NCBI GenBank assembly: GCA_036504095.1
Contig: DASXVS010000013.1
Location: 1 to 64,000 of the forward strand
Source: Armatimonadota bacterium
GTDB taxonomy: Bacteria; Armatimonadota; DTGP01; JAKQQT01
Direction of reading: 5' to 3'
DNA length: 64,000 nt
This document shows, in pieces, positions 10,066 to 14,760 of the stretch. Each line of letters begins with the position of its first letter. Positions within the stretch are counted from its first letter, which is position 1. Under the pieces are notes generated by a model. It was given only the letters and a program-made list of their open reading frames with translations, searched no databases and had not been told where the DNA came from. The translations under genes were made by a program, and so were the position numbers.

Positions 10066-10653
10066 TCAGAAGTCGCCGGACATAACGCGATCAGCGTCTA
10101 TGATGGATTCAGCGACTTCGCGAAGCGTTCGGCGCGAGCTCATGCTTTCCAATTGAATCTGGCGAAAGGCATCGTTCTCCTTCGTGCCATATTTGTCCAT
10201 AAGGATGCCCTTCGCGTGATCGACCGCTTTTCGCGTCAGCACGGATTCCTGGAGGTTGCGGAGTTCGGTTTGGAGCCCGGTGAGGCGGTCGCTGAGGGCC
10301 AGCGTCATCGCGATAGCGGGAGCCAGGTCGCTCTGCCGGAACGGCTTCACGAGATAGCAGAGGCACCCGGCTTCGCGGGATCGGTCCAGGTATTCCTGAT
10401 CGGTGTAAGCGGACAGAATGAGCGTGGGGGCAATGCGCTCAACGGCGAGCGTATGGGCGACTTCCAGCCCATCGAGGCCGGGCATACGGATATCCAGCAT
10501 TGCAATGGATGGATGGGTTTCGCGAGCGAGTTTCAGGGCCGTGTCGCCATCAGCGGCCTCGGCGACGACCTTGTGACCAAGTGACGCCAGCATTTCTCGC
10601 AAGTCCAACCGCGCAATCGGTTCGTCATCCGCGATAAGTATGCGGAGCGCCAT
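10066..10653 (-). CDS. Response regulator with ANTAR RNA-binding domain
   Basis: 195 residues. Receiver domain first (RILIADDEPIARLDLREML; phospho-acceptor Asp in SIAMLDIRMPG; Lys in YLVKPFRQ), then a coiled-coil and a C-terminal ANTAR domain (AVDHAKGILMDKYG, then EAFRQ-like DAFRQIQLESMSSRR). ANTAR regulators bind paired hexaloop RNA hairpins and prevent termination. Start ATG 10653 is supported by GGAAGGG 7 nt upstream; an upstream in-frame start lacks conservation. It heads the unit with the HisKA_2 kinase, matching the EutV/EutW kind of pairing. Confidence 0.93.
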   Translation of the reverse strand: MALRILIADDEPIARLDLREMLASLGHKVVAEAADGDTALKLARETHPSIAMLDIRMPGLDGLEVAHTLAVERIAPTLILSAYTDQEYLDRSREAGCLCYLVKPFRQSDLAPAIAMTLALSDRLTGLQTELRNLQESVLTRKAVDHAKGILMDKYGTKENDAFRQIQLESMSSRRTLREVAESIIDADRVMSGDF

Positions 10654-10736
10654 AAATGATCCCTTCCGAGGCGAAACATCGCACGTCTCAGCGTTCACCC
10701 GCACCAACGGAATGGCTTTCGGTCCGGCATTCGGTC

Positions 10737-10752: not shown

Positions 10753-10791
10753 CGAGACGCTCGCTGCGTCACAAGCAGGAGGACGCACATC

Positions 10792-11709
10792 ATGAACTCC
10801 GCGACAAAGAAGGCTTCGGGCGCCGACGAACCCTTCGAGCGAAAAAGGCGCATTTCGATCGGGCGTCTGATTGTCTGGCCCGCCGCTTATCTGCTCTTGA
10901 GGATGGCCGCCCCATTCATCCGTCTTCCGTTTCCTGCGCTTGCCAATATCGTCGCGACGGTGGTATTTCTGCTCCTGCCCCTGCTCTGGCTGCGCGAGAT
11001 CAGCCGGAACGCGCCGCGAATTCGTGTTGCGCTTCCGGTTTTCCTGATCCTCGCCGTAGTCTGGGCGGAATTGCTGCTCGGGATGCCGTTCGGCGTTCTC
11101 CGACACATTGATTGGCGGCACCACCTCCATGCGGCGCGGTTCATGCTCCTGTTCGACAGGCCGATGGCGGACCTGGCGCTGATCACCGCGGCGGCGCTGA
11201 TGGGAACGCTCGTTGCCAAAGTGATTTCGGACCCGAAGATGCTGCTGCCGGTCGCGCTTGTCGGCGCCCTCGTGGACTACTGGGGCGTCTACCTGGGTAC
11301 CACATCCGCGTTCATTAAGGCCTCGCCGAATCTCGTGCGCGCCGTTTCCGCCGGCATTCCAACCTTTGGGGGAGGGCTGACTCAGCGCGGAGTCCAGCCG
11401 GCGTCATTCGTGGGATTCGGCGATTGGCTCTTCCTCACGATGTTCCTTGCCGTCGCGTTCCGCTATGACCTTCAGCCGCGCCGAACGTTCTGGGCGCTGC
11501 TGGCGTTCCTGGTCCCGGCGATGCTTATCGTCATTTTCGGCGGCCTGGACTATCTGCCGGCAATCGTCCCAATGGCGCTCGCGATCGTTTGCGTAAACGG
11601 CAGGCGGCTGAAGATGAGCCGTTCCGAGACGTTCGCCTCGCTCTACGCCTTGCTGATGGTGCTGGCAATGGCCGGAATTTACACGCTGGTGGTGCGACGG
11701 CTGAGGTGA
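10792..11709 (+). CDS. Putative presenilin/SPP-like GxGD intramembrane aspartyl protease
   Basis: 305-residue polytopic membrane protein, about eight or nine hydrophobic segments. Three features match GxGD aspartyl proteases in the right order: an Asp in a membrane segment (LVDYWGVYLG, Asp162), a GxGD motif 49 residues later (FVGFGDWLFL, Asp211), and a PAL-like site (LPAIVP, 255-260) in a later segment. Presenilin and archaeal homologues use this order. The first motif is DYWGV rather than YD, and the third is PAI rather than PAL, so the call is tentative. A good AGGAGG site lies before the ATG. It stands alone between a regulator unit and a DedA gene. Confidence 0.5.
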   Translation: MNSATKKASGADEPFERKRRISIGRLIVWPAAYLLLRMAAPFIRLPFPALANIVATVVFLLLPLLWLREISRNAPRIRVALPVFLILAVVWAELLLGMPFGVLRHIDWRHHLHAARFMLLFDRPMADLALITAAALMGTLVAKVISDPKMLLPVALVGALVDYWGVYLGTTSAFIKASPNLVRAVSAGIPTFGGGLTQRGVQPASFVGFGDWLFLTMFLAVAFRYDLQPRRTFWALLAFLVPAMLIVIFGGLDYLPAIVPMALAIVCVNGRRLKMSRSETFASLYALLMVLAMAGIYTLVVRRLR

Positions 11710-12425: not shown

Positions 12426-13250
12426 ATGGACTTAATGATCCCGCTGGTCGCCATCGTTGCCACGTTGCTGGTCTTCTGGCTCGGTAGCGCCGCGCGAGCG
12501 TTTCCGGTGGCGGCAAACTTCGAGGGGAAATCCATCCCGATCGCGGGCATCGCGGTCGCGATCGGCATTCTTTTCGGCCTGCAGTGGGATTTGGCCTCGA
12601 ATGCGGGATTCCGCGGGACCGTTTGGACTGGGAAGCCGGCGGTTGCCGGCATCGCTATCCTCGCTTTCGCCGTGCTGGGATACGTTGACGACCGCTGGGG
12701 CGATCGCACCGTTTCCGGCTTCGGCGGCCATATCCGCTCGGCCCTGCGCGGCCGAATCACCACCGGTTTCATCAAGTTGTTCGGTGGCGGCCTGACGGCG
12801 CTCCTCTGTGGCCGTCTGCTGATGGACTCCGGCTGGGAGGCCGCCGGGACGTTGTGGCTCCTGAAGTCGGCGGTCATCGCTCTCAGCGCCAACGCCCTCA
12901 ATCTGCTGGACACGCGCCCGGCAAGAGCGGCTTGCGCTTTTGTCGGGCTTGTCGCCGCGAGCCTCGTCTGCGATCGTACCCAGGCTCCGATCATCGCGGC
13001 CGGGCTCGGCGCCGCCCTGGCGTGGCTGCCGCTGGACCGGCGCCGTTTGGCGATGCTGGGTGACGCGGGGTCGAACGTGATGGGCGCGTTCCTGGGCGTC
13101 ACTTTCGTCGCGTACGCACGCTGGGAGGCGGTGGCCTCAGCCCTCGTGGCGTTGGTCGTTTTTCACGTTTATGCGGAGAGGCGGTCGCTGAACGCAGACA
13201 TCGCCGCCACGCCAACGCTCCGCAAACTGGACGAATGGATAAGGGGCTGA
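12426..13250 (+). CDS. MraY/WecA-like polyprenyl-phosphate sugar-1-phosphate transferase
   Basis: 274 residues with about nine hydrophobic segments. Family residues are visible: DD motif at 88-89 (LGYVDDRWGD), NxxNxxD at 156-162 (NALNLLD) and LGDAGS around Asp213. This family transfers a sugar phosphate from a nucleotide sugar to undecaprenyl phosphate on the cytosolic face. The basic C-terminal loop (HVYAERRSLN) is short, so the sugar cannot be inferred; it is not the main MraY. The stop is 4 bp before the next gene, suggesting co-translation with the TIGR03790-like protein. Confidence 0.8.
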   Translation: MDLMIPLVAIVATLLVFWLGSAARAFPVAANFEGKSIPIAGIAVAIGILFGLQWDLASNAGFRGTVWTGKPAVAGIAILAFAVLGYVDDRWGDRTVSGFGGHIRSALRGRITTGFIKLFGGGLTALLCGRLLMDSGWEAAGTLWLLKSAVIALSANALNLLDTRPARAACAFVGLVAASLVCDRTQAPIIAAGLGAALAWLPLDRRRLAMLGDAGSNVMGAFLGVTFVAYARWEAVASALVALVVFHVYAERRSLNADIAATPTLRKLDEWIRG

Positions 13251-13254
13251 AGCG

Positions 13255-14760
13255 ATGAGGCTTACACTTGCTCTGCTTGCCCTCGTGCTGGTCGCAGCGA
13301 AGTCCCCGGCGGGCGAAAATCCCGCTACGGTGGTGGTCATCTATAGGACCAATTGCGACGACTATGACAAGGACGGGACCGGCGACTCGGAACAGATCGC
13401 CAGATACTACGCGGCGCGCCGCGGCATCCCGTCGGACCACTTGCTGGGGGTGAAGGTTGAGCTTCCGGGCGGCGCCAACCCGTTCGACAAATATCTCCGC
13501 TGGACGTGGGAGTCCTACCGATCCGCGCTTGTGAAGCCGTTGCGCGCGAAACTGAACGCCCTCGGACGCACCCGCATCCAGTATATCGTCACCACATTTG
13601 GGTTGCCGTTGCGGGTCCAGGTTCCTACCGGCAAGACGGACATGTCCGCGGATGTCGCCCTTGCGCAGCCATTCCGCATTTCGGAAGACGGGCTCCACAG
13701 CGGGCGATATTACGATCTGCAGCCCGATGGAAGGTACGGCGCCCAGCACTTTGAGGCGTTTCGCGCCCGGCACGCCGCATCTGATCCGCCGGACGATATC
13801 GGCTATATCGTCTCGCGCATTGATGGCGTGAGCGTGGCGGCCTGCAAATCGCTGATCGACGGCGCCATCTACGCCGACACGTACAAGCTGGATGGCTTTG
13901 CCTACGTGGACAATCGATACGGGGTTCACTCCGACGCTGAACTCCGGGCATGGCAGTCCGGCGGGCACTATTTCGCCCTTGCCGACATCGATAAGGGCGT
14001 GGAGTCCACGCGGTCCTACTTCCAGGCGGCCAAACTGAAGGTGCGCCAGCAGCCCGACGATGAATCGATCGGCGACAGCAAGGCTGGGCTCAGATACACC
14101 GATGGCTCGCCCGCGGACGTCGCGCCGAGGGCGCTTGCCTACGCGGGCTGGTACAATTACGGACGCTACAACGCGGTGTGGGACTGGCTGCCCGGATCGG
14201 TGGCTATCGACTTCGACTCGGCGAGCCTCTACGCCCACAACCTCTTCATGGGGAGTTTCGACGGGATGGCCCTCTTCAACGGGGCAAGCGGCGCCGTCGG
14301 CTGCTTTGCCGAACCATACGCCAACGGGCACCCGCAACCGGACGTATTCTTCGCGTACTACACCCGCGGCTACACGTTTGGAGAGTCCGCCTGGCTCAGT
14401 ATGCCGCAGCATCCGTTCGTGGACTTCGCCATCGGCGACCCTCTCATGAACCCATATGGCCGGGGCAGGAGTCGCGATAACGCGATCTCGCTGCCATCTG
14501 TCACCGTTAGCACGGGCCACGACGGTTTGCACGTGAGCATCGTGATGACGGGAAAGGCCGAGATTGCGCGTGCCCGAATGGTCGTGGCGGACGCAAGAAA
14601 CGACAAACTGTTAGCGCCGCCCACGTACCATGACGGTCGCTATCAGCGCGAGTTCGGATTGACCGCACCCCGGCCCCGGTCGGATCACGCCTGGATCGGT
14701 GTGGTCGTTACGGATCCGGCCGGCAACACGGCCCGCGTCTGGACGGAGTGGAAGGCTTGA
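13255..14760 (+). CDS. TIGR03790 family secreted protein
   Basis: 501 residues with a signal peptide (about 1-20) and an extended domain beginning ATVVVIYRTNC, then ARYYAARRGIPSDHLLGV, which matches the start of TIGR03790 proteins (a large family of unknown function common in environmental phyla). Aromatic-rich segments such as YAGWYNYGRYN and the GLPLRVQVP block are family-like. A C-terminal Ig-like stretch (VTVSTGHDGLHVSIVMTGKA) is likely. No catalytic residues can be named. Probably co-expressed with the transferase just upstream. Confidence 0.75.
   Translation: MRLTLALLALVLVAAKSPAGENPATVVVIYRTNCDDYDKDGTGDSEQIARYYAARRGIPSDHLLGVKVELPGGANPFDKYLRWTWESYRSALVKPLRAKLNALGRTRIQYIVTTFGLPLRVQVPTGKTDMSADVALAQPFRISEDGLHSGRYYDLQPDGRYGAQHFEAFRARHAASDPPDDIGYIVSRIDGVSVAACKSLIDGAIYADTYKLDGFAYVDNRYGVHSDAELRAWQSGGHYFALADIDKGVESTRSYFQAAKLKVRQQPDDESIGDSKAGLRYTDGSPADVAPRALAYAGWYNYGRYNAVWDWLPGSVAIDFDSASLYAHNLFMGSFDGMALFNGASGAVGCFAEPYANGHPQPDVFFAYYTRGYTFGESAWLSMPQHPFVDFAIGDPLMNPYGRGRSRDNAISLPSVTVSTGHDGLHVSIVMTGKAEIARARMVVADARNDKLLAPPTYHDGRYQREFGLTAPRPRSDHAWIGVVVTDPAGNTARVWTEWKA

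Follow-up and report, generated by a model that had tools for sequence, protein, structure and literature searches.

The locus and its features

Within the window (the whole stretch of DNA analysed, 64,000 nucleotides from an Armatimonadota bacterium), an open frame at 10792..11709 on the forward strand starts with ATG and encodes a 305-aa candidate intramembrane aspartyl protease of the GxGD type, with homologues in Armatimonadota. A strong Shine-Dalgarno sequence, AGGAGG (10777..10782, +), ends 9 nt 5' of the ATG. The functional assignments within the gene, all on the same strand, are predictions. The codon for Asp162, the predicted first catalytic Asp (11275..11277), lies in a helix of residues 148-167 that is taken as the equivalent of presenilin/SPP TM6, given its alignment with presenilin-2 and with the Pfam models for presenilin (PF01080) and SPP (PF04258). 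There follows a loop, residues 168-207 (11293..11412), which was delimited from AlphaFold secondary structure and, being low in K+R, is predicted to be periplasmic. The GFGD sequence of residues 208-211 (11413..11424) aligns with the GLGD of presenilin-1 and -2 and would place the second catalytic residue, Asp211, at the start of a helix of residues 209-224, the TM7 equivalent; PAI, residues 256-258 (11557..11565), aligns with the PAL motif of the same two proteins. Finally, Glu279 (11626..11628), a feature of this family, is found in a predicted cytoplasmic loop that precedes an extra C-terminal helix.

The divergent neighbour on the reverse strand (10066..10707) encodes a response regulator that carries, according to Pfam, an ANTAR domain of the RNA-binding antiterminator type; it is given here as context only. 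On the forward strand, 12426-13250 encodes a membrane protein with motifs like those of MraY/WecA-type glycosyl-phosphate transferases, and 13255-14760 encodes a 501-aa protein; neither has a Pfam match at E 0.01, and the latter product is perhaps reminiscent of the TIGR03790 family. A plasmid search returned none.

When searched alone, the 305-aa protein matches no Pfam family (the best match, to an unrelated model, has an E of 0.27) and no A22 model, and single-sequence searches of NCBIfam and PDB were likewise without a match. A scan of the genome contigs with this single protein gave zero relatives. Its orthologue in a sister genus is 53% identical. Because short hydrophobic motifs are common and the protein alone matches no named family, it could be argued that the motifs have arisen by chance in an unrelated transporter or another polytopic protein of the membrane. 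The evidence that bears on this argument comes from the family as a whole.

Conservation of the putative catalytic motifs

The original prediction assigned the motifs to VDYWGV (with D162), GFGD (208-211), and LPAIVP (255-260), in hydrophobic segments and in the order of presenilin and SPP. These positions are right, with each motif in or at the end of a predicted helix, and the order, D followed by GxGD and then a PAL-like motif, is that of presenilin/SPP. In an alignment of 89 diverse members, which are 19-52% identical to the 305-aa protein, no columns other than D162, G208, and D211 are invariant. Since these are the sole invariant positions at identities down to ~20%, the motifs are not attributable to chance. 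E279 joins these columns when only the 82 members from Armatimonadota are compared, and the next-best conserved residues are G138, L258, F214, G169, P256, P153, V166, and P190; P256 is kept in 78 of the 82 and L258 in 80. The motif residues show the strongest conservation within the family.

It had also been proposed that both the YD and the PAL motifs are altered, and here only the first half of the claim stands. The residue before the first Asp gives VD in 34, ID in 17, AD in 15, and YD in just 2 of the 82 Armatimonadota members. The Tyr of YD is a signature residue and is not catalytic; because it is not conserved, the family is termed A22-like rather than a strict member of A22. The third motif, on the other hand, is mostly the canonical PAL (43 members, with PGL in 22, PLL in 8, PVL in 3, and AAL or AGL in 4), and P-x-L is present in 76 of 82. 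The idea of a PAL motif that is degenerate across the family was therefore rejected, as PAI is restricted to 2 of the 82, the 305-aa protein and its sister.

Position 210 is G in 55 of the Armatimonadota members and A, giving GxAD, in the remaining 27 of 82; the switch between the two forms requires at least 4 changes on the family tree. Non-proteolytic roles have been proposed for presenilin, and this family might likewise have the A22 fold in the membrane but no protease activity, for example as a pseudoprotease, chaperone, or leak channel whose Asp pair serves in another role. The frequency of GxAD and the lack of any assay are compatible with such a reading. However, a catalytic Asp is usually free to vary once catalysis has been lost, whereas both Asp residues are invariant over two phyla while the rest of the protein drifts to ~20% identity, and the PAL turn and a strand-forming loop (see below) are also kept. 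A non-proteolytic role is consequently judged improbable, and protease activity remains likely, in the absence of assay data. The equivalent G-to-A change slows the archaeal enzyme MCMJR1 (G219A) and presenilin (G384A) (PMC2947513), and since GxAD occurs naturally in about a third of members, questions of mechanism at this position can be tested within the family.

Relationship to the A22 proteases

HMM comparison with A22 and the archaeal families had been suggested as a check on the original prediction, and it supports homology in both directions. When a profile built from 89 members was compared with all PDB sequences, presenilin-1 (E 1.2e-4) and presenilin-2 (E 3.9e-4) were retrieved, and the next match was at E 0.1. 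The alignments pair the GxGD and PAL motifs with those of both presenilins, and they pair the region of the first-Asp helix with that of presenilin-2. With a smaller family profile, presenilin-1 was the sole match (E 0.089).

In the reverse direction, Pfam models were run over 291 whole Armatimonadota genomes. PF04258 exceeds its curated cut-off (23.3 bits) at one place only, which is the family member of genome G269, in register, with 24.7 bits in the genome scan and 24.9 bits by hmmscan. This member and five other family loci make up 6 of the 18 matches to PF04258 at E<=1, with the register also kept in others of the family, and 2 of 12 weak matches to the same model in Myxococcota are also family loci. 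PF01080 gave 66 weak matches, at least 16 of which are family loci, with all members under the cut-off; these family matches are in register, covering either model positions 334-392 (the family GxGD) or ~179-209 (the family D162). Chance does not account for them, as the family gene is one among several thousand per genome. The archaeal model PF06550 finds one family locus in register (in G011) and no member over the cut-off in 291 genomes; across the phylum it matched mostly other genes. (A PF06550 match in the family gene of G008 was left out of the count because its register is wrong.) It weighs against an A22 assignment that only one member passes any A22 Pfam cut-off and that the other Pfam matches are weak.

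A match to an unrelated transporter family would have refuted the prediction, and none recurs among the 25 of 43 families listed in a Pfam scan of the 89 members. Other weak matches (CyanoTRADDas_TM, NnrS, EccD, PMT_2, and others) involve 1-2 members each and were set aside as non-recurrent. Blind searches of PDB and whole-genome searches with Pfam instead both lead to A22, with the register correct, so that motifs arising by chance in an unrelated polytopic protein deserve next to no credence.

A similarly slim case can be made for kinship with the prepilin peptidases (A24), which also rely on a GxGD motif and form the other group of such proteases in bacteria, where they are widespread. A24 enzymes are not known to have a PAL motif, which counts against this idea. 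No match to A24 (PF01478) appears among the same 25 of 43 families, and two separate canonical A24 prepilin peptidase genes lie elsewhere in the source genome. In A24 enzymes, moreover, the catalytic Asp residues are in soluble regions with several membrane helices between them (PMC2947513). An A24 origin is thus, with no match among the families listed, scarcely tenable, and the homology of the family to A22, as judged from profile comparisons, is well supported.

Predicted structure

AlphaFold models were made, with 11 sequences, for the 305-aa protein (pLDDT 84.8, pTM 0.82) and for a second member, L040, that is 28% identical to it (pLDDT 85.7, pTM 0.82). In both models the first-Asp helix is followed by short helices, two short strands, and then the helix that starts with GxGD; in the 305-aa protein, the strands are residues 186-189 and 205-208 within loop 168-207. 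In gamma-secretase, two such strands of the enzyme are extended by a third that the substrate contributes (PMC10290658).

Structure prediction was the second check that had been proposed, and its outcome is favorable as far as the ranking of matches goes. In Foldseek searches of 350,542 chains, ranks 1-16 for the 305-aa protein are held by presenilin (gamma-secretase), SPPL2a, and archaeal PSH, and ranks 1-10 for L040 by presenilin and SPPL2a, without competition from any transporter family. The best matches have E values of 0.007-0.06 (0.007-0.01 at the top), TM-scores of 0.22-0.41, and rmsd of 13-22 A, and the distance between D162 and D211, on which the check was to turn, was not measured. 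Because the TM-scores are low and the rmsd large, the same overall packing, that of the N-terminal half included, has not been shown. The reading of the protein as an A22 relative therefore has the support of its sequence and, in a more reserved way, of the predicted structures.

Distribution and descent of the family

A whole-genome protein search finds the family in 55 of 61 genomes, the source genome included. With a profile built from 28 members it is detected in 269 of the 291 genomes of Armatimonadota, among them 186 of the 194 of good quality, and in 152 of 156 genera, and these genomes mostly carry one copy. The family tree broadly tracks taxonomic families, a pattern that points to mostly vertical descent. 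In Myxococcota, where the first lead was locus L043 from a Myxococcaceae record, the family is patchy (11 of 189 genomes). A binning error was considered as the source of the Myxococcota copy and rejected, given that 11 genomes carry a copy and that all but one long-branched row cluster.

Several individual loci depart from the usual arrangement. The family gene is absent from three ~97%-complete genomes of genus g16 in family f15 (G015, G028, and G041), a possible natural loss. L107:5938-7818 (G074) contains a tandem pair of family genes with both Asp residues in each, AAL in one, and PAL in the other. At L141:4341-6806 (G029), the family member is part of an 822-aa frame whose long C-terminal part has no Pfam match and resembles, by eye, a serine hydrolase; this may be an artefact of the frame or a natural gene fusion. 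Lastly, the member at L134:5993-7243 (G040) is extended at its C-terminus by a PDZ-like segment, which scores 24.9 bits with Pfam PDZ_6, under the cut-off of 27; the segment is periplasmic by predicted topology and reminiscent of PDZ-bearing site-2 proteases.

Membrane topology

The content of K+R per residue, computed for 82 members, is 0.162, 0.215, 0.297, and 0.255 in the loops assigned to the inside and 0.068, 0.096, 0.066, and 0.043 in those assigned to the outside. This alternation of charge predicts nine helices with the N-terminus in and the C-terminus out, a first-Asp helix that runs outward, and a loop 168-207 that is outside. Four helices are predicted before the first-Asp helix. 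In SPP, five helices precede the catalytic pair. The N-terminus of SPP is outside, and its catalytic orientation, opposite to that of presenilin, is the same as that predicted here; SPP substrates have a cytosolic N-terminus (PMC7366577). From the helix counts and the N-in arrangement it appears that, relative to SPP, one N-terminal helix has been lost and a C-terminal one gained. Consequently, the strict definition of SPP (A22B) as N-out with five preceding helices is not met, although the orientation of the core is still SPP-like.

Gene neighbourhood and other peptidases

Among ~80 loci, 31 have downstream, on the same strand, a gene for what we take to be leucyl-tRNA synthetase, a name given from the sequence as read and without a profile. 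At 22 of ~80, the 10792-11709 locus among them, the ANTAR response regulator lies upstream in divergent orientation; at 20 loci one more gene is present beyond the regulator, and it encodes a GAF-GAF-histidine kinase in the example examined. Both leuS and the regulator are present at 6 loci. The position of the gene looks old and conserved, which fits a housekeeping role and names no substrate.

This neighbourhood bears on another possible reading, in which the protein is a presenilin-oriented protease whose substrates in regulated intramembrane proteolysis are type I segments, perhaps with a tie to the sensor kinase and ANTAR regulator. The top PDB profile matches are indeed presenilins rather than SPP, and a GAF sensor kinase and an ANTAR regulator adjoin the gene in many genomes. 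However, the loop charges favour an N-in protein with the catalytic loop outside, the one Pfam match over the cut-off is to SPP and not to presenilin, and the link between regulator and protease is positional only. This reading is unlikely.

SppA is the usual bacterial signal peptide peptidase. An SppA (S49) gene is present in the source genome, and S49 exceeds its cut-off in 34 of 61 genomes. Clearance of signal peptides is therefore not exclusive to the family. A general replacement of SppA was also considered, but a test of co-occurrence was unsupportive; both kinds of enzyme coexist.

A probable bacterial A22-like protease

Taken together, these analyses argue that the gene probably encodes a bacterial diaspartyl intramembrane protease of the GxGD type, homologous to presenilin/SPP (clan AD, A22-like), with its activity inferred. 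Homology, motif conservation, topology, and phylum-wide distribution are computed results; catalysis, cleavage within the membrane, and a housekeeping role are inferences made without enzymatic data. In the proposed mechanism, D162 and D211, on neighbouring helices, would jointly activate a water molecule, in an active site that would owe its shape to the PAL-like turn ahead of the next helix. The loop that links the two catalytic helices, with its predicted strands, would take up the unwound substrate as one more strand. An N-in protein in which the first Asp follows four helices would present an SPP-oriented catalytic pair with a periplasmic inter-helix loop, and from this orientation the substrates would be transmembrane segments with a cytoplasmic N-terminus, namely signal peptides left after secretion and type II or tail-anchored proteins. 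This substrate class is inferred from orientation and remains tentative, somewhat short of an even chance. The role in Armatimonadota would be housekeeping clearance of the membrane, possibly with regulated intramembrane proteolysis as well.

Comparison with known intramembrane proteases

Presenilin, familiar from Alzheimer's disease, and SPP are membrane-embedded proteases. They cleave the Alzheimer's precursor, as well as signalling proteins, within the membrane, and their archaeal homologues serve as a simple model. To our knowledge, proteases of this type have so far been described mainly from eukaryotes and archaea; Raut et al., in 2021, reportedly dealt with the archaeal roots of SPP and presenilin. 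Archaeal members were shown biochemically in 2010, and until then presenilin-like enzymes outside eukaryotes were undemonstrated (PMC2947513). Literature searches for bacterial presenilins, confined to open-access papers, found no such family, and no open-access paper pairs 'presenilin' with 'Armatimonad' (UniProt, InterPro, and MEROPS were outside the scope); one review mentions a 'bacterial presenilin homologue' in passing. It is somewhat more probable than not that the family forms a third, bacterial branch of presenilin/SPP, a core gene of Armatimonadota that also occurs in Myxococcota and has its own architecture. Such a branch would place this class of protease in bacteria besides archaea and eukaryotes. 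A near-universal, mostly single-copy bacterial family would widen the range of these enzymes, bear on the age of intramembrane aspartyl proteolysis, and offer many natural variants for study, as well as a candidate for signal-peptide and membrane-protein turnover in a little-studied phylum.

Of the systems already known, prepilin peptidase (PF01478, A24) is alike in being a bacterial GxGD aspartyl protease but differs in the order of its motifs. Archaeal PSH (PF06550; MCMJR1, PDB 4hyg) is also a prokaryotic GxGD protease and has the same D/GxGD/PAL layout, with the one in-register locus noted above; it differs in sequence and helix number, and 4hyg ranks only 12th in the Foldseek search with the 305-aa protein. 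Presenilin (PF01080, A22A), the catalytic subunit of gamma-secretase, provides the best PDB sequence match, with alignment of GxGDF...PAL and of the stretch after the first Asp, and it shares two strands before GxGD, which are predicted in the family and seen in substrate-bound presenilin. In contrast to presenilin, the family is predicted to have the opposite membrane orientation, no partner subunits were noticed nearby, and its inter-helix loop of ~40 residues is without the long cleavable loop of presenilin.

SPP and the SPP-like proteins (PF04258, A22B) share with the family the succession of a D helix, a GxGD helix, and, ahead of the helix after that, a PAL-like motif, together with an inter-helix loop predicted to be non-cytoplasmic, and it is their Pfam cut-off that one family member passes. 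Unlike SPP, the family is bacterial, has four rather than five helices before the first-Asp helix and an extra C-terminal helix preceded by a conserved Glu, lacks a conserved YD Tyr, carries GxAD in a third of its members, and is ~14-15% identical to SPPL2a in Foldseek alignments. The family, new within the open-access literature searched, is thus best described as a bacterial variant of the A22 presenilin/SPP kind.
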